IMG/VR virus record: IMGVR_UViG_3300044957_000075
Location: 1 to 24,275 of that record
Origin: a virus
Reading direction: 5' to 3' (one strand)
Length of the DNA: 24,275 nt
The position numbers and the translations under genes are program-made. Of the stretch, positions 3 to 20,785 are shown in pieces. The notes under the pieces were generated by a model. The model searched no databases. It was not told where the DNA came from and saw nothing but the letters and a program-made list of their open reading frames with translations. Every line of letters starts with the position of its first letter. Position 1 is the stretch's first letter.

Positions 3-245
3 AACTTCAAGAGCATCAAGGTCAAGTCTGTAGGCGGTGAGCGTTCAGATACCGGCGAAGGTCTTGCTGCGGCTTCTGGCACTGCCATGCGTAAACATGT
101 TGCAGCGGGTGACAAGGAATCATTCCATAAGATGGCACCTTCGGGTATGAGCAAGGCACATAAGGATGAATTGTACCACGATGTTCGTAAAGGTATGGGC
201 ATTCACGAATTGTTCATCATGAGATTTAAAAACTGGATTCACTAA
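3..245 (+). CDS. C-terminal end of an unrecognised phage protein (5' truncated)
   Basis: An open frame runs in from the left edge and ends at TAA 243-245, giving 80 residues. The visible part is hydrophilic and basic, with many Lys, His, Gly and Ser residues and a Met-rich stretch, and it ends FKNWIH. No catalytic motif is visible. The stop overlaps the start of the next gene (TAATG), so the two are translationally coupled and probably belong to the same late virion operon. The style resembles the Lys-rich putative head-internal proteins further right, but with the N-terminus missing no family can be assigned. The frame call rests on the lack of stops and the coupling. Confidence 0.6.
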   Translation, partial: NFKSIKVKSVGGERSDTGEGLAAASGTAMRKHVAAGDKESFHKMAPSGMSKAHKDELYHDVRKGMGIHELFIMRFKNWIH

Positions 246-1117: not shown

Positions 1118-2530
1118 ATGGAAGATAAGAAGAAACCGGTACCAGAAAAGAATACGAAGAAGCCTACTGGCAAATCTGCAACTGGTAAACCACTAAATGG
1201 CATTGACGTCAATCCTCAGCTAGACGACAAGCGCCGTACAAACGAGGACTTCGCCGTCCTAACCGCGACCCTCCAAGAACGCAAAGCTCTGACTCTTGCT
1301 CAACGTCAGCAAAGAGGCCGCCAGCTGAAGCGCATTCAGCCAAAACTTCAAAGAGCTAAAAAAATCTCGCAAGGACATCTTGCTGGACCACAGAAACTAC
1401 AAAGACGTGCCGAAGCCAAGGCCCGCGCAATCCTGAAATCAAGAATTGCTGCTCGCAAGGATATTCCTTACGCAGAGCTGACAACTTCTGAAAAGATTCA
1501 GGTAGATACTGCAGTTGCTAAGAAGACAAAGCTGATTAAACGCATTGCTGCACGTCTTCTACCGAAGCTGAGAAAAGCCGAATTTGAAAGACTCAAGTCT
1601 TTCCACTCTGGTGCACCTATGAAGAGTCTTCATACGGTCGCTGCATCAGAAGAATTTTCTGGTCTCTTTCAAGATCTGAATGCCAAGTCAACATTAGAAC
1701 TTGTTGACATCATTGAGAACGCGATTACCAAGTTTGAAAAAGAAGGTAATCCAATTAGCATTACTCTCCGTAGAATGCTGAACTCGACGATTGGTACAGA
1801 TCCAATCACAGAGATACTTATCAAAAAAGCTGAAAAGACTAACATTCCGTTCTCGACTCTTAGAGAAGTGTTCGAGCGCGGTCTTTCGTCGTATATGAAT
1901 GAGTCGATACAGACACCAGAACAGATTGCATTTAATCGAGTCAATAGCTATATTGCCAAGGGTAGAGCATGGACTCTTGATGCAGACCTTCGTGAAGAGA
2001 AAGCTGTGAACGAAGAGCTCGATCTGGCATTCAATGAGCTTCTGGAAAAACAAGGCATATGGGCAAACATTCATGCCAAGCGCCAAAAAATCAAAGCTGG
2101 TTCAGGTGAGCGTATGCGCAAGCCTGGAGAAAAAGACGCACCGACACCTGAAGGTTTAAGATCTGCCCAGGAAACTGCATGTGAAATCACAGCAGCCGAT
2201 AGAGAGATTGGCACTACTTCACTCATAAAGAAGTACAAGAAAGATACACCTGGCCAAGAGAAAGCCGACCTGAACGAGACATTCAACATGGCTTGGACTG
2301 CAGGAATTGGTGTAACTCTTTCTGCTAAAGAATGCGGCATTAAGATGAAGTCAGCATTTGAGCACCATCCTGATGTTGTTGACGCAATGGAGGAAGTACG
2401 TTCTGCTGATATTGAAGGTGTGGTTGTTCGTACTGCTAGCGGCAAGACTATTGTTCGTAAGCAGAAGAGAAACAGAAAGATTATCGGCACTGGCAATCTG
2501 ACAGATGGGAAACCAAATGATACGCTTTAA
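1118..2530 (+). CDS. Lys/Arg-rich conserved phage protein, likely head-associated
   Basis: This is a 470-residue protein. The frame is open from an ATG at 1061, but 1118 is preferred because AAGGGA (1105-1110) precedes it and the late promoter would start transcripts at about 1064. The N-terminal half (about residues 35-165) is strongly basic and predicted helical, with a RQQRGRQLKRIQPKLQRAKK segment. Residues about 243-293 carry a domain with RVNSY-x2-KG and D-x-DLR motifs, also found in the protein at 6702-7763 and widespread in marine T4-like phages (I recall it as DUF5824-like; not verified). The C-terminus (about 390-470) has a GIGVTLSAKECGIKMKSAF segment. No enzyme motif is visible. The basic composition and late context suggest DNA contact inside the head, which is inference. 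Confidence 0.65.
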   Translation: MEDKKKPVPEKNTKKPTGKSATGKPLNGIDVNPQLDDKRRTNEDFAVLTATLQERKALTLAQRQQRGRQLKRIQPKLQRAKKISQGHLAGPQKLQRRAEAKARAILKSRIAARKDIPYAELTTSEKIQVDTAVAKKTKLIKRIAARLLPKLRKAEFERLKSFHSGAPMKSLHTVAASEEFSGLFQDLNAKSTLELVDIIENAITKFEKEGNPISITLRRMLNSTIGTDPITEILIKKAEKTNIPFSTLREVFERGLSSYMNESIQTPEQIAFNRVNSYIAKGRAWTLDADLREEKAVNEELDLAFNELLEKQGIWANIHAKRQKIKAGSGERMRKPGEKDAPTPEGLRSAQETACEITAADREIGTTSLIKKYKKDTPGQEKADLNETFNMAWTAGIGVTLSAKECGIKMKSAFEHHPDVVDAMEEVRSADIEGVVVRTASGKTIVRKQKRNRKIIGTGNLTDGKPNDTL

Positions 2531-2816
2531 GCAATTTATTTTAGAAGCTCGCGGTGCTGACTCAAAGGGGCATTTCAGGGCCACCGAGAAGGGTGCAGGC
2601 ATGACTGAGAAGGGTGTCAAAGCCTATCGTCGCGCTAATCCTGGATCAAAGCTTCAAACAGCTGTAACCGGTAAGGTAAAGCCAGGATCTAAAGATGCTA
2701 AGAGACGCAAGTCTTTCTGTGCTCGTATGGGTGGCATGCCAGGTCCTATGAAGGATGAAAAAGGTAGACCAACACGCAAAGCAATGTCTCTGCGTAGATG
2801 GAGATGTAGAACGTAA
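2517..2816 (+). CDS. Small basic phage protein (DUF6321-like) with capsid-targeting-like N-terminus
   Basis: The frame opens at ATG 2505, but I prefer the in-frame ATG at 2517, giving 99 residues that begin MIRFKQFILEARG. This start closely resembles the capsid-targeting sequence of T4 internal proteins (for example IPIII, which begins MKTYQEFIAEA), and ILE-A fits the T4 gp21 cleavage pattern (I/L-x-E before a small residue). The rest is strongly basic and matches a phage family I recall as DUF6321: RRANPGSKLQTAVTGKVKPG, KRRKSFCARMGGMPGPM and TRKAMSLRRWRC. It overlaps the previous gene by 14 bases and its stop overlaps the next start (TAATG). A small DNA-binding cargo protein delivered with the genome is a reasonable guess. 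Confidence 0.65.
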   Translation: MIRFKQFILEARGADSKGHFRATEKGAGMTEKGVKAYRRANPGSKLQTAVTGKVKPGSKDAKRRKSFCARMGGMPGPMKDEKGRPTRKAMSLRRWRCRT

Positions 2817-3250
2817 TGGAAGAGATTACAAATCCTCTGAAGATCGCATTTGCAGATACCTATGCATTCTATGTGAAGGCACAGAACTATCATTGGAATG
2901 TAGAAGGTCCAATGTTTGCAATGTATCATGAATTCTTTGGCAAGATCTACGAAGAAGTTGGTGGTACAATTGACCAGTTTGCTGAAGAGATTCGTGCGCA
3001 GAATACATATGCGCCAGCATCTTTTAGCAGATTCCGTGATCTGACAAACATCAATGACGAAGTTTTAATTATTAAGCCTGAACAAATGGTAGAAACATTG
3101 TTCTCAGATAATGCTACTGTGCTTGCTTCATTACATCGTGCAAGAGATGTTGCTGATAAGTATAATGAAAACGGTCTGGTTAATTTTCTTGAAGAAAGAC
3201 TTGATCAGCACAAGAAACACGCTTGGATGTTAAGGGCATCGATGAAATGA
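2816..3250 (+). CDS. dps: Dps-like DNA-binding ferritin
   Basis: This 144-residue protein is a ferritin-like four-helix bundle of the Dps family (usually about 150-170 residues). The intersubunit ferroxidase residues are all present with the family spacing: His26 (YHWNVEG), His38 (YHEFF), Asp53 and Glu57 (TIDQFAEEIRA), giving gaps of 12, 15 and 4 as in E. coli Dps (51, 63, 78, 82). The C-terminal helix EERLDQHKKHAWMLRA is also typical. It lacks the long Lys-rich N-terminal tail of E. coli Dps, so DNA binding by that route is unlikely. Dps proteins oxidise Fe(II) with hydrogen peroxide and shield DNA. Its place between putative head-internal proteins suggests late expression and possibly packaging, which is inference. 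The start overlaps the preceding stop and the end overlaps the next gene (ATGA). Confidence 0.88.
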   Translation: MEEITNPLKIAFADTYAFYVKAQNYHWNVEGPMFAMYHEFFGKIYEEVGGTIDQFAEEIRAQNTYAPASFSRFRDLTNINDEVLIIKPEQMVETLFSDNATVLASLHRARDVADKYNENGLVNFLEERLDQHKKHAWMLRASMK

Positions 3251-3831
3251 GTTATCGTTCACTTGAATCTAAAATTCGAGATATTTTTGAAGGTGTGAGT
3301 ATTCATGCTGGAGAGTCTGATCAGAATGATCAGATTGCGGTTGGGTCGTATACAACTAAAGCATTTGAAGTGTCTCCACAGGCACAGAAGCTCTATGCAA
3401 ATCTTCCAAAAGAAACAAATGCTTCTGATGCTCAAACCGCGGCAGAGAACTTAGATAAATTATTTGATATTGTTAAGGATGTACAACATACTAGTAAAGC
3501 AACAGCGGCACATATTGCTCGTGCTACCATGCACGGTGAGATTGTAATGAGACATGCTGTTGGCATGAAACTTGAAAAAGAACACGATGCTATTGTCAAG
3601 GCTGCAATGAGAACTATTCATTCTCATTCTGGTGAACATGAAAAAGAACTTGATCCAAATACTGAGTATCATCCAGCTGACGACAAAAGATTTTATAATC
3701 CACCAAAGGGATATGTACCAGATCCAATTGCAGGGCCTCAGGGTGATAAAGATATAGATAACCTAAAGAAATACCTTATTAAAAGGTCCCGTGCGGCAGA
3801 ACGAAAAATTAAAATCATAGATGTAGATTAA
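3247..3831 (+). CDS. Conserved phage protein, putative head-internal protein
   Basis: This is a 194-residue protein. The start chosen is ATG 3247, which forms an ATGA overlap with the Dps stop; an upstream in-frame ATG at 3223 would add eight residues inside the Dps gene. The N-terminus, MSYRSLESKIRDIFEG, is an amphipathic helix ending IFE-G, matching the T4 prohead protease pattern. Many marine T4-like phage proteins of unknown function begin similarly. The middle (about residues 50-130) is predicted helical and Ala/His-rich, and the C-terminal part has a YNPPKGYVPDPIAGPQGDKD segment and a basic tail. No catalytic motif is visible. Virion or prohead-core location is inferred from the N-terminus and neighbours. 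Confidence 0.6.
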   Translation: MSYRSLESKIRDIFEGVSIHAGESDQNDQIAVGSYTTKAFEVSPQAQKLYANLPKETNASDAQTAAENLDKLFDIVKDVQHTSKATAAHIARATMHGEIVMRHAVGMKLEKEHDAIVKAAMRTIHSHSGEHEKELDPNTEYHPADDKRFYNPPKGYVPDPIAGPQGDKDIDNLKKYLIKRSRAAERKIKIIDVD

Positions 3832-3843
3832 AGGACTCCAACA

Positions 3844-5268
3844 ATGTTTACAAAGAAACTCGAAGATCAATTTTCTGCCGACCTTCTGAATACCGTAAAA
3901 AGTATTCTAGGCGAGGCTAAACACGACAAAGAATGCGAATGCGAAAAGTGCAAAGAAGAAGATGAGGATGAAGAAGATGAAGCCAAGGAAGAGAACGGCA
4001 AGAAGAAAATGAAGGAAAACTATGTCAGTGCCGCTCAGCGCAAGGCTGTGTGGGCAAACCGTGCTGACGGTGGTAAGGGTCATCCTGATAACAAAAAGAA
4101 GAAGATGAAGAAGGAAGGATACGTTCCTACCGCTGATGAACCGACAGAGCATGACAAAAAGACTGCTCAGAAGGTTCGTGATATGATGGCAAAAGAAAAG
4201 AAGCCAGTCAAGAAAGCTGCTGAACGTCTTGGTAACAATACTCTTGCCAAGGAAGAAGTCGAGCAGATCGATGAGCTTTCGAAGGACGCACTAGCATCAT
4301 ACACAGTAAATGCTGCTAGAGATCTTCCACGTCTTGCTGGTAAGAGACAGGCCGAAATTCGAAAGACCGGTATTGGAGCATCCGATAGAAAGATTAAAAA
4401 TCGTATTAAAGGTATCGATACTGCAGCCGATCGCCTTCGTAACGAAGAAGTCGAGCAGATCGACGAACTCTCAAAGGCAACACTGGGTCGTTACATTAAC
4501 AAGGCTGCCACAAAAATAGGTAGCCAAGGTGTTACAGCCGGTCTGAAAATTGCTGCTGATGAGAAGTCAAGCAAGAACTTTAAGGATATGGGTAAGCGCG
4601 AAAAGGGTATTGCAACCGCTGTCAAGAAACTGACCAAGGAAGAACAGGACTTCATTGATGCGCTCAATGATGCTGATCTTGAGCAGATCGATGAACTATC
4701 GGGCGCAACTCTTGGTTCTTATGTTGCCAAGTCAAGAAAAGACGAAGCTGATCGTCGTGAAAAAGGAATCAAGATACGCGACGAGATTCGTAAGCAAACA
4801 GGCCTAAGAGTTGGTACACCAATTGATCGCAAGATCCACAGTTCAACAACTGGCCGAGCAGCGGGTCAAAGAATGGCAGTAAAGAAACTGACCGGACAGG
4901 CACGCGTGAATGCAAAGGAAGAAGTTGAGCTAGAAGAAGGTCGTGGTCGTCCGCCGAAGGAAGGTTCGGCTGCATGGCATGCAAAGCAAAAGCAAGCTAA
5001 TGATGACATGGTTTCTCTTGGCATGCAACTTCGTAAAGCCAAGTCAATCAACAAGAAGGTTCGTTTCATGGATAACAAAGAACATGATATCCATCCGAAC
5101 CACATCAATCGCTTTGAAGACCATATGGCTGCTCGCAGAACAACTCAAGAAAAAGACAAGTTCCAGAGACAAGCCCACAAGTCACATGCAGAATTCGTCA
5201 AGGCTGTATCTGCCCCAGTTCCAAAGGCTGCGAAGGACACTGGCGAGATCGTAAAGTATAGGCACTAA
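3844..5268 (+). CDS. Repeat-containing phage protein with AT-hook; putative head-internal or scaffold protein
   Basis: This 474-residue, highly charged protein has an AAGGA-type ribosome site upstream. Its N-terminus reads ...NTVKSILGEAKHDKE, with LGE-A at residues 22-25 fitting a prohead-protease site. A Cys/acidic patch follows (Cys31, Cys33, Cys36, then about 14 mostly Asp/Glu residues). Three copies of an EQIDELS-x4-L-x2-Y unit start at residues 140, 204 and 280, each followed by a basic spacer. At 366-374 lies an AT-hook core (GRGRPPKEG, with RGRP at 367-370). The C-terminal 95 residues form a domain with MQLRKA and KEHDIHPNHINRFEDH motifs that I recall in other phage proteins of this kind. 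No enzyme motif is seen. DNA contact inside the capsid is plausible from the AT-hook and charge; the function is unproven. Confidence 0.65.
   Translation: MFTKKLEDQFSADLLNTVKSILGEAKHDKECECEKCKEEDEDEEDEAKEENGKKKMKENYVSAAQRKAVWANRADGGKGHPDNKKKKMKKEGYVPTADEPTEHDKKTAQKVRDMMAKEKKPVKKAAERLGNNTLAKEEVEQIDELSKDALASYTVNAARDLPRLAGKRQAEIRKTGIGASDRKIKNRIKGIDTAADRLRNEEVEQIDELSKATLGRYINKAATKIGSQGVTAGLKIAADEKSSKNFKDMGKREKGIATAVKKLTKEEQDFIDALNDADLEQIDELSGATLGSYVAKSRKDEADRREKGIKIRDEIRKQTGLRVGTPIDRKIHSSTTGRAAGQRMAVKKLTGQARVNAKEEVELEEGRGRPPKEGSAAWHAKQKQANDDMVSLGMQLRKAKSINKKVRFMDNKEHDIHPNHINRFEDHMAARRTTQEKDKFQRQAHKSHAEFVKAVSAPVPKAAKDTGEIVKYRH
4252..4731 (+). repeat. Three in-frame EQIDELS repeat units
   Basis: Units begin at about 4252, 4444 and 4672, each about 60 bases, separated by 132-168 bases of less conserved sequence. 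The first two share an identical 20-base stretch (4252-4271 and 4444-4463), and the third shares the 11-base core GAGCAGATCGA at 4681. The protein consensus is EQIDELS-[KG]-x2-L-x-[SR]-Y. A degenerate fourth unit lies in a different gene at about 7143-7202 (KEDVQIDEISK...SY). Identity at DNA level points to fairly recent duplication inside this gene. Confidence 0.85.
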
Positions 5269-6313: not shown

Positions 6314-6702
6314 TGGTTGATAAACTTGATGAAACAAACTTTTTGTTATATGCCGCGAAACATTATGATAACCCGCAATGTTTTGATACACTCGAGTTCT
6401 ATGAGGATTTAGCTCGATTCAAATATATTAAAAGATTATTAAATCGTTATGAAGAAACTGGAGAACTTAAAGAAAGACTCGTAATTAATCACTTGATTAT
6501 TCTATACAATGTGTTTGGTCCACCGGCCACGCGAATGCTCTTCTTTAAGTTGGACGGTTATCATCATATGTTGAAGCCGTTCATTGTTTTATTAGGACAT
6601 ATGCCAAATGTGATTCAAGGCATTGGATATGAAAATAAAACAATAATCAGTTCAGACATTTATATGGATGAGAACATAGTCAAGATTCTAAGGAAGATCT
6701 AA
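6313..6702 (+). CDS. Conserved T4-like phage protein of unknown function
   Basis: This 129-residue, mostly helical protein starts MVDKLDETNFLLYAAKHYDN. It includes EFYEDLARFKYIKRLLNRYEETGELKERL (split here by structure: an acidic helix, then a basic one) and a HLIILYNVFG segment. I recognise this pattern from many marine T4-like phages, where it lies in the structural region with no known role. No catalytic motif, signal peptide or membrane helix is convincing; the ILYNVF and MLFFK stretches are too short. It overlaps both neighbours by one base (TAATG at each side), so it is made together with flanking virion proteins. Confidence 0.65.
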   Translation: MVDKLDETNFLLYAAKHYDNPQCFDTLEFYEDLARFKYIKRLLNRYEETGELKERLVINHLIILYNVFGPPATRMLFFKLDGYHHMLKPFIVLLGHMPNVIQGIGYENKTIISSDIYMDENIVKILRKI

Positions 6703-7763
6703 TGAGAAAGAATCCAAGAGATAAAGAATCGGGTCTTCCGAAGGCATATGTAAAAGGTCTGAGTTCGTCGACTGCAAAAGCAAGAAAAGCACACTGGGAT
6801 AGAGCAAATAAACTTTCTGATAGAGATCCAAGAGCTTATGAGCCCGCCCCTGGAGATGCTAATGCGAAAACAGTGCCAAGCAAAGCCACGAGAGAGGTTA
6901 GAAAAATCATGAACAAAGAAGAAGTAGAAATTACAGAAAAAGCTGAAAACTCTCTTGCTGCAAAAGCGAAGAAGTTTGACGTTCCTCTTGATACTCTCAA
7001 GACGGTTTATCGTCGTGGTGTTGCTGCATGGAATTCAGGCCATCGTCCTGGTACTACACCACAACAGTGGGGTCATGCTCGCGTAAATTCATATCTGCGC
7101 AAAGGCAAGGGAACTTACTACGGGACTGATAAGGATCTTCGTAAGGAAGATGTTCAGATCGATGAGATCTCAAAAGATATAATGAAATCATATCGGGGCA
7201 AAGCTCTTAATCAATACGTAAATGCTACTCTTTCTCCTAAGTATGATAATCATGATAGCAAAGAGCATAAACTTGCTATAAAGAGAGCGAGAGGCCTAAA
7301 TATGGCCCACAAGAAGATTGGCGAAGCCAAAGATGAAAGAGAATACGGCTACGAAGGTGAGATGGTTATGTCTCAGTTGAAGGGTATTATGAATCACGCA
7401 CAGCAGCTTTACGACATACTAAAACCAGATACAGATCTTCCTGAATGGGTTCAATCGAAAGTTACTCTTGCATATGACTATCTTCAAACGGCTGCCGATT
7501 ATATGGCAACCGAGATAAATGAAGAGTGGGAAGTGAGGAGAGGAACAAAGGTTATCTCTACTCATAAGAAAAAAGATGAAGCGGACGTGAAGGCCATGAA
7601 GCATCCTCTGAATAAGGTTGTTGCTAAAGAAGAAGCTCCAGTCAACGTTGCCGGTACTGGTAACGTTGCCGGTCTTGGTGTTGGTTCACAGGGTGAACCC
7701 GGTGTAAAGAAAAAGAAGAAACCAGCGCTTGCAAGCTTTAAGAGATTTGTGAGGAGAACATAA
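6702..7763 (+). CDS. Multidomain phage protein with RVNSY-type domain and EQIDELS-like unit; putative head-internal protein
   Basis: This 353-residue basic protein has several modules. Residues 1-70 form a domain (SGLPKAYVKGLSSSTAKARK, YEPAPGDANAKTVPSKATRE) found in other phage proteins. Residues 91-149 are the same domain as in the protein at 1118-2530 (W-x6-RPGTTPQQWGHARVNSY-x2-KG, then DKDLR). Residues 148-165 carry a VQIDEISK...SY unit like the repeats of the 3844 gene. Residues about 215-275 are a helical acidic segment. The C-terminus has NVAGTGNVAGLGVGSQGEPG followed by a Lys-rich tail. No catalytic residues are seen. The mix of modules shared with two other genes suggests a family of cargo or scaffold proteins built by shuffling. 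It is coupled on both sides by TAATG overlaps. Confidence 0.65.
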   Translation: MRKNPRDKESGLPKAYVKGLSSSTAKARKAHWDRANKLSDRDPRAYEPAPGDANAKTVPSKATREVRKIMNKEEVEITEKAENSLAAKAKKFDVPLDTLKTVYRRGVAAWNSGHRPGTTPQQWGHARVNSYLRKGKGTYYGTDKDLRKEDVQIDEISKDIMKSYRGKALNQYVNATLSPKYDNHDSKEHKLAIKRARGLNMAHKKIGEAKDEREYGYEGEMVMSQLKGIMNHAQQLYDILKPDTDLPEWVQSKVTLAYDYLQTAADYMATEINEEWEVRRGTKVISTHKKKDEADVKAMKHPLNKVVAKEEAPVNVAGTGNVAGLGVGSQGEPGVKKKKKPALASFKRFVRRT

Positions 7764-8281
7764 TGTTAGGCATGATTCCTCTTCCATATAAATTATTAGC
7801 AGGTACAGCGCTCATAGCCGGTGTGTTCTTTTATGGCTACATGAAGGGATCCACTTATGCTGATGCAGAACTAGCTCGCTATGGTCAAAAGCAGGCTGAG
7901 TTGGTATCTGAACTTGAAAAGGCGAAAACAGAGATTACAATACAAACCGTAACTAAATATGTTGATAGATTACAAGTTGTAAAGGAAAAAGAATATGTCT
8001 ACCGCGACCTCGCTCAAAATGTTGTTCCTAACCAGTTCACTCTGTCTAATGGCTGGGTGCACACGCACGACGCTAGTGTCCGTGCCGACAATGCCGACCC
8101 CGCCAGAGCTTCTGATGCGACCCCCTCAGGAATTACAGACACTACGGCCCTTGTCGGAATCGTCGGAAACTACTCAAGATGCCAACAAAACGCCGAGCAG
8201 CTCAGACAGCTCCAGCAATGGATAATCCTAAATAAGGAAGCTGTCGATATGGTGGCACAGGAAGCGAATAAAAAGAAATGA
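7763..8281 (+). CDS. Inner-membrane spanin (Rz-like)
   Basis: This 172-residue protein has the i-spanin plan: a short N-terminus, one membrane helix (about residues 9-26, LLAGTALIAGVFFYGY), then a charged coiled-coil segment (about 38-85) in the periplasm. The C-terminal part NYSRCQQNAEQLRQLQQWI (136-154) resembles the end of Rz-type proteins. Spanins join the inner and outer membranes and fuse them in the last step of lysis of Gram-negative hosts. The best support is the lipoprotein gene embedded in its +1 frame, the arrangement of lambda Rz/Rz1. GAGGAG at 7751-7756 precedes the ATG, which overlaps the previous stop. The central stretch (about residues 93-125) is low in structure and rich in Ala, Asp and Ser, as expected where it is constrained by the second frame. 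Confidence 0.82.
   Translation: MLGMIPLPYKLLAGTALIAGVFFYGYMKGSTYADAELARYGQKQAELVSELEKAKTEITIQTVTKYVDRLQVVKEKEYVYRDLAQNVVPNQFTLSNGWVHTHDASVRADNADPARASDATPSGITDTTALVGIVGNYSRCQQNAEQLRQLQQWIILNKEAVDMVAQEANKKK
7995..8225 (+). CDS. Outer-membrane spanin lipoprotein (Rz1-like), embedded in Rz
   Basis: This 76-residue gene lies wholly inside the Rz-like gene in the +1 frame. It begins MSTATSLKMLFLTSSLCLMAGC, a lipoprotein signal peptide with a lipobox ending MAGC, so acylation is predicted at Cys22. The mature part is Pro-rich near its start (VPTMPTPPELLMRPP), then Ser/Thr-rich, as in Rz1 proteins. AAAGGA at 7981-7986 sits 8 bases before the ATG, an independent ribosome site inside the Rz gene. The product would be an outer-membrane lipoprotein whose periplasmic end meets the C-terminus of Rz. 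Lambda has the same nested layout. Met at the -3 lipobox position is tolerated but not ideal. Confidence 0.8.
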   Translation: MSTATSLKMLFLTSSLCLMAGCTRTTLVSVPTMPTPPELLMRPPQELQTLRPLSESSETTQDANKTPSSSDSSSNG

Positions 8282-17749: not shown

Positions 17750-17990
17750 TTATCTGAAGCGCGCTCTCCATAATGGAGTCGTTCAAGTAATCTTTATTAA
17801 GAAAGATGGAACAGAGCGCAGGATGGTCTGCACACTAAAGCCTGGTCTTCTTCCAGCACAGACTGACCTCGAAGAAGCTGTGCAAAAGAAGACTCCGAAC
17901 TCAGATGTTCTGGCTGTATGGGATCTTGAGAATCAGGGATGGAGATCGTTCCGTTATGATTCGGTTCTCGGATTTACTCAAGAATCATGA
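17694..17990 (+). CDS. Small SH3-barrel-like protein (DUF2693/WYL_2-like)
   Basis: From ATG 17694 this is a 98-residue protein overlapping glutaredoxin by 56 bases; GTG 17688 is an alternative. The conserved part starts at DYLKRALHNGVVQVIFIKKD and continues GTERRMVCTLKPGLLP, with VLAVWDLENQGWRSFRYDSV near the end. This pattern fits small T4-like phage proteins I recall under DUF2693, a Sm- or SH3-like barrel. The first 15 residues (Asn- and Thr-rich) look like forced coding across the overlap, so the true start may be a rarer codon further in. The role is unknown; nucleic-acid binding is plausible. The stop overlaps the next gene (ATGA). Confidence 0.7.
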   Translation: MTNSLNTTTDQNNNSWQNDYLKRALHNGVVQVIFIKKDGTERRMVCTLKPGLLPAQTDLEEAVQKKTPNSDVLAVWDLENQGWRSFRYDSVLGFTQES

Positions 17991-18331
17991 TCTATATGAT
18001 AGACATTGATCAGACAATTTGTCTGACGCCGTTTGTTGATGGCGTACATCGCTACGATATGTCAACTCCTTTTCACCATCGTATTGAAGAGATAAACAAA
18101 CTATACGATCAAGGGCACACCATCATTTATTGGACTGCCCGCGGTTCAGGATCCGGATTGGATTGGACCGAACTTACTTCACAACAACTAAATGACTGGG
18201 GCTGTAAGTACCAGGAAGTTCGTCTTGGAAAGCCATCGTACGACGTATGGATCGACGACAAAGCTTTCAACGATCGCGATTTCTTTGCAATTGCAGACCT
18301 TAACAACTTTCTAGGAGTTGACGATGAATAA
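17987..18331 (+). CDS. HAD-superfamily phosphatase, first gene of a sugar cassette
   Basis: This 114-residue protein has the HAD motifs: motif I DIDQT (Asp6, Asp8), motif II with Thr50 (IIYWTARGS), Lys82 (LGKPSYD) and motif IV WIDDKA (Asp90/Asp91). It is short, with little or no cap domain, like the small HAD proteins I recall in surface-polysaccharide gene clusters next to heptose genes. The role would be phosphatase on a sugar phosphate; in the heptose route, GmhB removes the C7 phosphate from heptose 1,7-bisphosphate. This protein is not a canonical GmhB (no zinc loop is visible), so that role is inference. It overlaps the glycosyltransferase by eight bases. Confidence 0.8.
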   Translation: MIYMIDIDQTICLTPFVDGVHRYDMSTPFHHRIEEINKLYDQGHTIIYWTARGSGSGLDWTELTSQQLNDWGCKYQEVRLGKPSYDVWIDDKAFNDRDFFAIADLNNFLGVDDE

Positions 18332-19307
18332 TCAAGATCTAATTGAACTAAATGAACTCAACAAGGAGTCGAATGGTGGAACTGAACTTACCACTCGAAA
18401 TCTCTTCCACCGACTCGCGCGAGATGAACTCGATGGTATCCAAATTATCACTGCTCGCGTACGCGAATTGGATCCTGAACGAATTAGAATCTATCACCTT
18501 CACGACCTACCTCTCGATCCTGAGGCTGAACACCTTAAAGATCCAGCTTCTCGAGCGCGCTTTCACAAGCTGGTCTTTAGCTCTAACTGGCAGTATCAAC
18601 AATATCGTGACTATCTTGGAGTTCCATATAGCCATCAATCATGCGTTATTGAAACAGGTATTGAGCCACTCGAGCTCGTTGAGAAGCCAAAGGACAAGAT
18701 TCGCCTCATTTATACGTCCACGCCACATCGTGGACTGGAGATTCTGGTTCCTGTCTTTATTGCTCTTGCCGAGAAATACCCCAACATCGAGCTAGATGTC
18801 TTCAGTTCATTCGGCATCTATGGTAAGAACTGGGAAGGCCGTGATCAACAGTACGAGCCACTGTTCGAAGCATGTCGTAATCATCCACAAATTAACTATC
18901 ATGGTTGGGCAGATCAAGAAATAGTACGTGCTGCATACCAAAAGGCTCACATCTTTGCGTATCCTTGCATTTGGCCAGAGACTTCTTGTCGTTCACTGAT
19001 TGAAGCAATGTCTGCCGGCTGTCTTGCTGTACATCCGAACTTCTCTGCTCTGACTGATACGTCAGGTGGTCTGACAGTTCAGTACGATGGTGATCATGAG
19101 AATATGAATCTCCATGCAAATATCTTTGCTCACACTCTGATGTACGCCATCGAGAATGTACAGAACAACGATTTGACAAATCTTCTCACATTCATTAAGG
19201 CATATGCTGATACTCGATTCTCTTGGGAATCGATCATGCCGAAGTGGAAAGGTCTGATTGCATCATTGAAGGAACATCACAGTGATCTTGGCAAAAGCGC
19301 CTCTTAG
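18324..19307 (+). CDS. GT4-like glycosyltransferase
   Basis: This is a 327-residue protein from ATG 18324, which has AGGAG at 18313-18317; an in-frame TTG at 18318 is less likely. It shows a GT-B plan: an N-terminal NGGTE loop, a linker with VIETGIEP, then LIYTSTPHRGLEILVP and the donor-site segment YPCIWPETSCRSLIEAMSAG, where the E-x7-E motif falls at about Glu219/Glu227. Proteins with the ELNELN...SNGGTEL start are common in phages. It would move a sugar from a nucleotide donor to an acceptor (DNA base, protein or glycan). The overlapping sugar-phosphate genes suggest a heptose-type donor, which is inference. It has no signal peptide, so it acts in the cytoplasm. Confidence 0.85.
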   Translation: MNNQDLIELNELNKESNGGTELTTRNLFHRLARDELDGIQIITARVRELDPERIRIYHLHDLPLDPEAEHLKDPASRARFHKLVFSSNWQYQQYRDYLGVPYSHQSCVIETGIEPLELVEKPKDKIRLIYTSTPHRGLEILVPVFIALAEKYPNIELDVFSSFGIYGKNWEGRDQQYEPLFEACRNHPQINYHGWADQEIVRAAYQKAHIFAYPCIWPETSCRSLIEAMSAGCLAVHPNFSALTDTSGGLTVQYDGDHENMNLHANIFAHTLMYAIENVQNNDLTNLLTFIKAYADTRFSWESIMPKWKGLIASLKEHHSDLGKSAS

Positions 19308-20232
19308 AGTATCGTTCTTCGGCGGTGGTAGTGATATCCCCTCCCATTTTGTACAGTGGGGTGGAGCCACCATCTCGACTGCTATCAATAAATATGTCTA
19401 CGTAGCAGTGATGCACACTCCTCATAATCATATCAAAGTTTCCTATTCAAAACAAGAATGTGTAGAGCACGTTGATAAAATTCAGAATGAAATTGTCCGC
19501 AACACACTGAAGTTCTTTGGGGTCGAATCCAACATTGAGATCACATCTTTTGCAGACATCCCCACGATTGGTAACGGTCTTGGTGGATCGTCTGCCTTTA
19601 CTTGTGCTCTTGTTAAGGCTTTGAGTGCATATCTTGGTTATGAGTATGTGAATCCATACAGTGTAGCAAAGACTGCATGTCATATCGAGATCGATCTATG
19701 TGGTTGGAAGATCGGCATGCAGGATCAGTTTGCATCTGCATTCGGCGGTATGAACTACATTCAGTATACAAACGAACTTGGCAATAGTCATGTGGACGTG
19801 AAGCGACTTGATTCGAACGGTATCGAGAACTATATGATCTTAGTTCCAACTAACATCGAACACCACGCAGCGAAGATTCTTGATAACATTAACTTTGAAG
19901 CCAAGACGTTTGTGATTCGAGAGCTGGCACATATGGCAGACATGCAGGGAACTCAGAAGGTTCATATTAATGACTATGGTCGTTTGCTCAATTCTGCATG
20001 GGCACTTAAGAAGCAAATGGACGATAGTATCTCTTCAATAGAGATAGATAGTATGTACGACCGGTGTCAATCAGCCGGTGCATACGGAGCCAAACTCCTT
20101 GGCGCAGGCGGCGGCGGATACATGCTAGCACTCACAGATTCAAAGAGCAAGATCCGTACCGAGTTTTCAGATAGAATATGTTTAGATGTAGGTATTTCAT
20201 ATGAAGGAGCGCGCATTGTCTATCGTGACTAA
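19282..20232 (+). CDS. hddA: GHMP sugar kinase, D-glycero-D-manno-heptose 7-phosphate kinase (HddA-like)
   Basis: This 316-residue protein from GTG 19282 has AAGGA nine bases upstream. It starts MILAKAPLRVSFFGGGSDIP, the HddA-type form of the GHMP substrate motif. The ATP loop GNGLGGSSA (residues 98-105) and the C-terminal GAGGGGY (274-280) complete the GHMP set. GMQDQFASAFGGMN (145-158) is the catalytic region shared with HddA and fucokinase-like enzymes. HddA makes heptose 1,7-bisphosphate from the 7-phosphate in the GDP-heptose route. The gene overlaps the glycosyltransferase by 26 bases and the isomerase by 32. Fucose or other sugar kinases of this family are the main alternative, but the isomerase next door favours heptose. 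Confidence 0.87.
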   Translation: MILAKAPLRVSFFGGGSDIPSHFVQWGGATISTAINKYVYVAVMHTPHNHIKVSYSKQECVEHVDKIQNEIVRNTLKFFGVESNIEITSFADIPTIGNGLGGSSAFTCALVKALSAYLGYEYVNPYSVAKTACHIEIDLCGWKIGMQDQFASAFGGMNYIQYTNELGNSHVDVKRLDSNGIENYMILVPTNIEHHAAKILDNINFEAKTFVIRELAHMADMQGTQKVHINDYGRLLNSAWALKKQMDDSISSIEIDSMYDRCQSAGAYGAKLLGAGGGGYMLALTDSKSKIRTEFSDRICLDVGISYEGARIVYRD

Positions 20233-20785
20233 TTATGATCAGCACTGTAATGCTGTAAAAAGAGGCCTTGAGTCTGTCGATGTTGAAAGACTCCAGAAAG
20301 CTGCTGATGCAATCTTATATGCCATTCGCATGGGCTCTGTGATATACACGGCTGGCAATGGTGCATCTGCAGCAATTGCACAACACTGGGCGTGTGACTA
20401 TACAAAGGGGTGTTCGCGTCTTGATATACCGAAGCCGTTCAAGCCAAAGGTGATTTCGCTTTCGGCCAATATCCCATTGATGACTGCAATCTCCAATGAC
20501 ATCTCGTATGATAAAGTATACTCATATCAGCTTGAGCGACTTGCCGACTTAGGTGATGTGTTCATTAGTATTAGCAGTTCTGGCAACTCTCCATCTGTGG
20601 TCGAGGCATGCAAGGTTGCTTTGTCAAAAGGAATGACCGTGATTGCACTCACTGGCTTTGATGGTGGTGAAACACGCAAATTGGCACACCACTCAGTTCA
20701 TGTCGATCTTCCAGAGTATGAGGCGGTCGAGGATGTACACCAGGCGATCATGCACACGATCGCAAAATATCTTCGGACAAAATAA
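20201..20785 (+). CDS. gmhA: SIS-domain phosphosugar isomerase (GmhA-like)
   Basis: This 194-residue protein has a single SIS domain: GNGASAAIAQHW (52-63), SLSANIPLMTAISND (86-100), ISSSGNSPSVVEAC (124-137) and EDVHQAIMHTI (177-187). GmhA turns sedoheptulose 7-phosphate into D-glycero-D-manno-heptose 7-phosphate, the substrate of HddA, and gmhA-hddA pairs are known from GDP-heptose clusters. The Gln of the E. coli QEIH-x4-H motif is Glu177 here, and the His of the SHCDAMHFAEE region is absent, so it resembles the GmhA2/DiaA branch rather than E. coli GmhA. The start is uncertain: ATG 20201 lies in the kinase gene, while TTG 20216 has AAGGAG close before it. This ends the cassette. Confidence 0.82.
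   Translation: MKERALSIVTNYDQHCNAVKRGLESVDVERLQKAADAILYAIRMGSVIYTAGNGASAAIAQHWACDYTKGCSRLDIPKPFKPKVISLSANIPLMTAISNDISYDKVYSYQLERLADLGDVFISISSSGNSPSVVEACKVALSKGMTVIALTGFDGGETRKLAHHSVHVDLPEYEAVEDVHQAIMHTIAKYLRTK

Follow-up and report, generated by a model that had tools for sequence, protein, structure and literature searches.

Do three clustered genes of an environmental virus encode proteins that are loaded into the prohead, trimmed there and injected with the DNA? The question is raised by a 24,275-base viral contig fragment of 35 genes (termed here the window), in which a first-pass annotation had singled out the N-termini of three proteins (named here, by their start positions, the 2517, 3247 and 3844 products). 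All three N-termini and their coordinates are correct (Table 1), and each tag does end in a motif of the type cut by the prohead protease gp21, namely [IL]xE before Ala or Gly (ILE/A, IFE/G and LGE/A, where the slash marks the putative cut). The best explanation of the observations described below, and one that is considered fairly probable as a whole, is that this segment of the window is part of a block of head-cargo genes in a T4-like phage; the 2517 product would be docked, cut and retained within the head, and the 3247 and, with less certainty, the 3844 product likewise. This kind of protein is already known from T4; what is new lies in the cargo and in how broadly the tag occurs among environmental T4-like phages.

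Table 1. Coordinates of the window features under discussion (slash, predicted cut).
Feature	Positions	Strand	Basis
C-terminal end of NMNAT/cytidylyltransferase-like protein, head of the block	3..242	+	blastp: G026 NTase 3e-9, S-SCSM1 gp91 1e-7
Basic multi-domain protein, same block	1118..2530	+	weak Pfam DUF5824 match, E 1.3e-3, under curated cut-off; relatives
Basic DUF6321 protein, 99 aa, capsid-targeting-like N-terminal tag MIRFKQFILE/A	2517..2816	+	Pfam DUF6321 E 1.4e-21
Capsid-targeting-like sequence, residues 1-10, T4 IPIII register (F4, F7, I8, E10)	2517..2546	+	
Dps/ferritin-like protein, untagged, between tagged genes	2816..3250	+	Pfam Ferritin E 3.4e-22; PHROG 3636
194-aa protein: helix MSYRSLESKIRDIFE/G at the N-terminus, then a disordered linker and a helical core	3247..3831	+	relatives; alignment; model
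Repetitive protein, 474 aa: MFTKKLEDQFSADLLNTVKSILGE/A start, then an acidic stretch; IDELSxxTLxSY module in three copies	3844..5268	+	
DUF5824 protein of same block, with shuffled modules	6702..7763	+	Pfam DUF5824 E 4.2e-17; module sharing

The block to which these genes belong runs, in order, from the NTase end (the 5' end of which is off the contig) through the DUF5824, DUF6321, Dps, 3247 and 3844 genes and, further on, to primase, ThyX, NrdA and NrdB. The tagged genes had been called consecutive, which is true of four relatives (L009-L012) that lack the Dps gene and in which all three are adjacent, the DUF6321 gene abutting the 3247 homologue; in the window, the Dps/ferritin-like gene, which is conserved in most relatives, separates 2517 from 3247. 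A DNA search of phage records found no match to the window as a whole, and gp21 is not on this 24-kb fragment; a 163.5-kb relative (G026) has both gp21 and gp23, the latter with LFE/A at the expected place. T4-type gp5, gp6, gp25, gp53, gp32, gp33 and gp59 occur on 70-kb contigs of close relatives, and T4-type tail and replication genes on two contigs of the close clade (G005 and G011, both incomplete).

The 2517 product matches the DUF6321 profile (PF19846) with 77.4 bits, against a curated cut-off of 28.5, and, with its 99 residues and a pI of 11.5, it is small and basic in the manner of T4 internal proteins. A second in-frame ATG lies upstream, at 2505; the start at 2517 is favoured, since it coincides with the first residue of the conserved tag and GGGA stands just upstream of it. 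An AlphaFold2 model has a helix at residues 4-10, within a low-confidence segment (residues 1-13), and its folded domain starts at around residue 19; a PDB fold search with the DUF6321 model (pLDDT 71.3) returned no match, and a literature search on DUF6321 and DUF5824 found nothing.

The resemblance of this N-terminus to that of T4 IPIII, also pointed out in the first-pass annotation, is borne out by the T4 record (MKTYQEFIAEA): in register, M1-I-R-F4-K-Q-F7-I8-L-E10/A11 aligns with M1-K-T-Y4-Q-E-F7-I8-A-E10/A11 of IPIII. Within the ten-residue tag of T4, targeting depends on residues 4 and 7, and processing on residues 8 and 10 (PMC9026906). Among 15 distinct relatives of the 2517 product, F4, F7 and E10 each occur in 15/15 and all 15 have I, V or L at position 8; six different residues are found at position 9. 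The T4 register (an aromatic residue at 4, F7, a hydrophobic residue at 8, and E10) is thus present in the 2517 product and its relatives; it is absent from the 3247 and 3844 products, neither of which is classified here as an IPII/IPIII-type protein. In seven related contigs (representing four distinct sequences: L017; L019-L021 and L026; L023; L024) the tag is preceded by a short N-terminal extension (MANDIIGFKEF... and others), so that in these its distance from the start Met can vary. In the same seven contigs and in L028, F4 is encoded by TTC with no upstream stop codon overlapping it at +11; the idea that F4 is kept only through overlap with an upstream stop was rejected because F4 is retained where that stop is absent.

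That targeting (positions 4 and 7) and processing (positions 8 and 10) are separable in T4 (PMC9026906) lends some plausibility to a different view, in which the N-terminal segments are helices that dock onto the head, or onto some other part of the virion, and that stay uncleaved. This is judged quite improbable: an invariant E10 preceded by a free position 9 is the signature of the processing rule and, where DUF6321 forms part of a longer fusion protein in T4-like contigs, [ILV]xE mostly stands right ahead of the domain. If the tag is instead a cleavable capsid-targeting sequence, as is preferred here, the cut within the 2517 product is predicted to fall after E10. The 2517 product shares with T4 IPII and IPIII an N-terminal tag of ten residues and its register (an aromatic residue at 4, F7, I8, E10/A11), and would yield a small basic product; it differs from them in that its predicted mature part is a DUF6321 domain rather than an internal protein.

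The tag is linked to phage lineage. The presence of gp21/gp23 was discarded as a lineage marker, being too sparse (2/50 DUF6321 contigs), and T4 core genes identified by tblastn were used instead. Glu precedes the DUF6321 domain, mostly as [ILV]xE, in all nine contigs with T4-type genes, and in none of ten contigs lacking T4-type markers; Glu is likewise found there in G070 and G043, although no T4 marker was detected on these. The association between Glu and lineage (Fisher p = 2e-4, contigs alone) is based on a residue read by eye and on contigs that are fragments, for which absent markers do not prove another lineage. Four isolates without T4-type markers (HTVC024P, HTVC027P, HTVC028P and DSL-LC04) have DUF6321 without either tag or Glu. 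The Pfam family to which the 2517 product belongs also includes members, from phages without T4-type markers, that lack the tag.

The same link is seen at gene starts. Formulated as the pattern M..[FYW]..[FLIMY][ILVMF].E and scored at ATG starts, the IPIII register occurs in 13 of 398 ORFs from the nine T4-like DUF6321 contigs versus 0 of 441 from the ten others (p = 6e-5), and at 1 of 1429 internal Met residues in the T4-like contigs. Between 60 and 110 kb of T4 it matches, among 71 ORFs, exactly IPII and IPIII, and within the window it matches 2517 only. Twenty-seven relatives together contain 42 matches in 622 ORFs (20 distinct sequences, which are mutually non-independent), for the most part in DUF6321 and DUF6267 proteins. 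The T4-like contig G033 (151 kb) has five matches, including a HAD phosphatase-like protein; the pattern scan found no IPIII-register start in G026. On G070, a 91-aa HNH endonuclease-like protein (L187:16786-17058, + strand) has the IPIII-register start MKTFFQFITE.

Virion data enter by way of two cyanophages, both analyzed by published mass spectrometry (PMC10665884, PMC9602691). Three of three S-CREM2 proteins with the pattern--gp6 (SAM hydrolase), gp136 and gp154 (cytidylyltransferase)--belong to the virion proteome (PMC10665884), as does gp91 (NMNAT) of S-SCSM1, gp30 of the latter phage not being reported there from the virion (PMC9602691); detection of 4/5 pattern proteins has a chance probability of p = 0.007. 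The authors themselves caution that such virion proteins may be carry-over (PMC10665884, PMC9602691). Moreover, S-CREM2, S-SCSM1, P-TIM68 and Cr30 show synteny across the NTase-to-primase block, and the window block corresponds by position to S-SCSM1 89-101 and S-CREM2 154-164. Detected in virions are 89-93, 95 and 97 of S-SCSM1 (PMC9602691) and 154, 155, 156 and 160 of S-CREM2 (PMC10665884). Sequence homology among the compared block genes is confined to the NTase, the 6313 product and primase, the others sharing position alone. The S-SCSM1 gp91 and S-CREM2 gp154 proteins share with the 2517 product both its block and its kind of start (MKSFLQFLKE/A and MKNFSSFLTE/A, respectively), and differ from it in being NMNAT/cytidylyltransferase enzymes rather than DUF6321 proteins; no targeting tag is mentioned for either in the available text (PMC10665884, PMC9602691). 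It is only by analogy with S-CREM2 and S-SCSM1 proteins that have the same start, or that are syntenic, that the proteins of the window would be expected in virions.

For the 3247 and 3844 products other evidence must be considered. The motif [IL]xE[AG] occurs within residues 5-30 in exactly three of the 35 window genes (2517, 3247 and 3844) and in 10 of 403 internal 26-residue segments (2.5%), from which about 0.9 genes would be expected. Plain [IL]xE is common, being present in 14/35 N-termini of the window; taken by itself, the motif therefore says little about 3247 and 3844. The same commonness, together with the finding of the 3844 tag in close relatives only, speaks for an explanation in which both motifs arose by chance and were retained by common descent alone. 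The clustering of the only three genes with [IL]xE[AG] speaks against it, as does the persistence of the 3247-family site through sequence change and a one-residue shift, down to 48% identity, and this explanation is regarded as unlikely. The 3247 family consists of 27 relatives in viral contigs and corresponds to no Pfam family; [ILV]xE stands at the helix end in 14/15 aligned sequences (IFE, IYE, VLE, ILE, LIE, LRE), and the site is lost in the most distant homologue, that of G026. With a pI of 6.4 the 3247 product is not basic, and its model, in which the N-terminal helix spans residues 6-20, is of low to middling confidence (pLDDT 64.5). A fold search with this model matched only unnamed phage proteins, and tblastn with 3247 found no match in phage isolates.

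The tag of the 3844 product is retained in 11 close relatives, in some of which LGE is replaced by LDE. The protein has only five [IL]xE sites (with E at residues 24, 144, 208, 284 and 365), one in the tag, one at the start of each of the three modules and one ahead of GRGRP. At the module sites P2 is for the most part D, and P1' is L, I or V, which argues against ordinary gp21 sites; given this mostly fixed P2 residue and the hydrophobic P1', the IDELS repeats were not taken as established protease sites. The module, in the form IDELxxxTLxSYI, is shared with a G026 protein (L029, 152227-153060) that is encoded between gp20 and gp21. Because the module recurs in a protein at that location, the 3844 product (and perhaps the 3247 product) could belong to the prohead core or scaffold, like T4 gp67, gp68 and gp22, in which case it would be cut up and mostly expelled rather than injected as cargo. 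This proposal, which is thought somewhat unlikely though it carries more weight than the two considered above, draws on several features: residues 25-60, behind the first site, form an acidic stretch with a pI of 4.6, the modules are repeated, all five [IL]xE sites coincide with the tag or with module junctions, and the place of the G026 protein, between portal gp20 and protease gp21, is that of T4 genes 67/68. The resemblance to gp67 and gp68 extends to the acidic stretch, the gp21-type sites and the module common to the G026 protein. The 3844 product is unlike them in being much larger, in being basic apart from its acidic stretch (pI 9.9 for the remainder) and in genome position, its gene lying in the NTase-primase block rather than among head genes or between gp20 and gp21; also, its module sites, in which P2 is mostly D and P1' hydrophobic, are unlike those of gp22, gp23 and the internal proteins.

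Returning to the head-cargo reading, the following mechanism is proposed. The ten-residue capsid-targeting sequence of the 2517 product would dock on the prohead core via F4 and F7; a gp21-type prohead protease of the phage would then cut after E10; and the basic DUF6321 domain would be left in the head with the DNA and might be ejected into the host. By means of longer N-terminal helices ending in [IL]xE/[AG], which, compared with the tags of IPII and IPIII, are out of register, the 3247 product would take the same route, as would, with less certainty, the 3844 product. The original capsid-targeting interpretation is well supported for the 2517 product, which is very likely a capsid-targeting-sequence-tagged head protein, given its IPIII register, its conservation, the enrichment at starts in T4-like contigs only and the virion detection of same-start proteins in relatives. 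For the other two it is plausible, with the 3247 product likely, and the 3844 product possibly, such a protein; here the interpretation draws on a conserved [ILV]xE that ends an N-terminal helix and on the presence of the block's positional counterparts in relatives' virions.

More generally, the IPIII-register tag could serve T4-like phages, far outside the T-evens too, as a general and portable label for cargo, borne by shuffled proteins that are packaged into the head and injected--a generalization whose prospects are evenly balanced. Among the proteins so marked would be NMNAT-like, SAM hydrolase, HAD phosphatase-like, DUF6267, HNH nuclease-like and DUF6321 proteins. If this is true, virion cargo is predictable from a gene's first ten residues. 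Cyanophage proteomics has found NMNAT-like enzymes in virions, and the reports leave undecided whether these are cargo or contamination (PMC10665884, PMC9602691); a tag in a register that has been mapped by mutation in T4 offers both a mechanism and a simple test for such enzymes. Many uncharacterized genes of environmental T4-like phages likewise become candidates for injected early-infection proteins, and the tag may mark those that such phages carry into their hosts.

Three further features of the window were noted. Short modules (DUF5824 and KAGSGERMRKPGEK) are shuffled among proteins of the block (1118-2530 and 6702-7763) and those of related phages. A weak-to-good match to an Rz-like spanin family at 7763-8281 (PHROG 8821, E 7e-9) suggests a lysis gene after the block. 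Finally, four adjoining genes at 17987-20785 resemble a heptose-type sugar set, comprising a HAD-like protein, recognized by eye, and a glycosyltransferase, a GHMP kinase and a SIS isomerase, recognized by Pfam.
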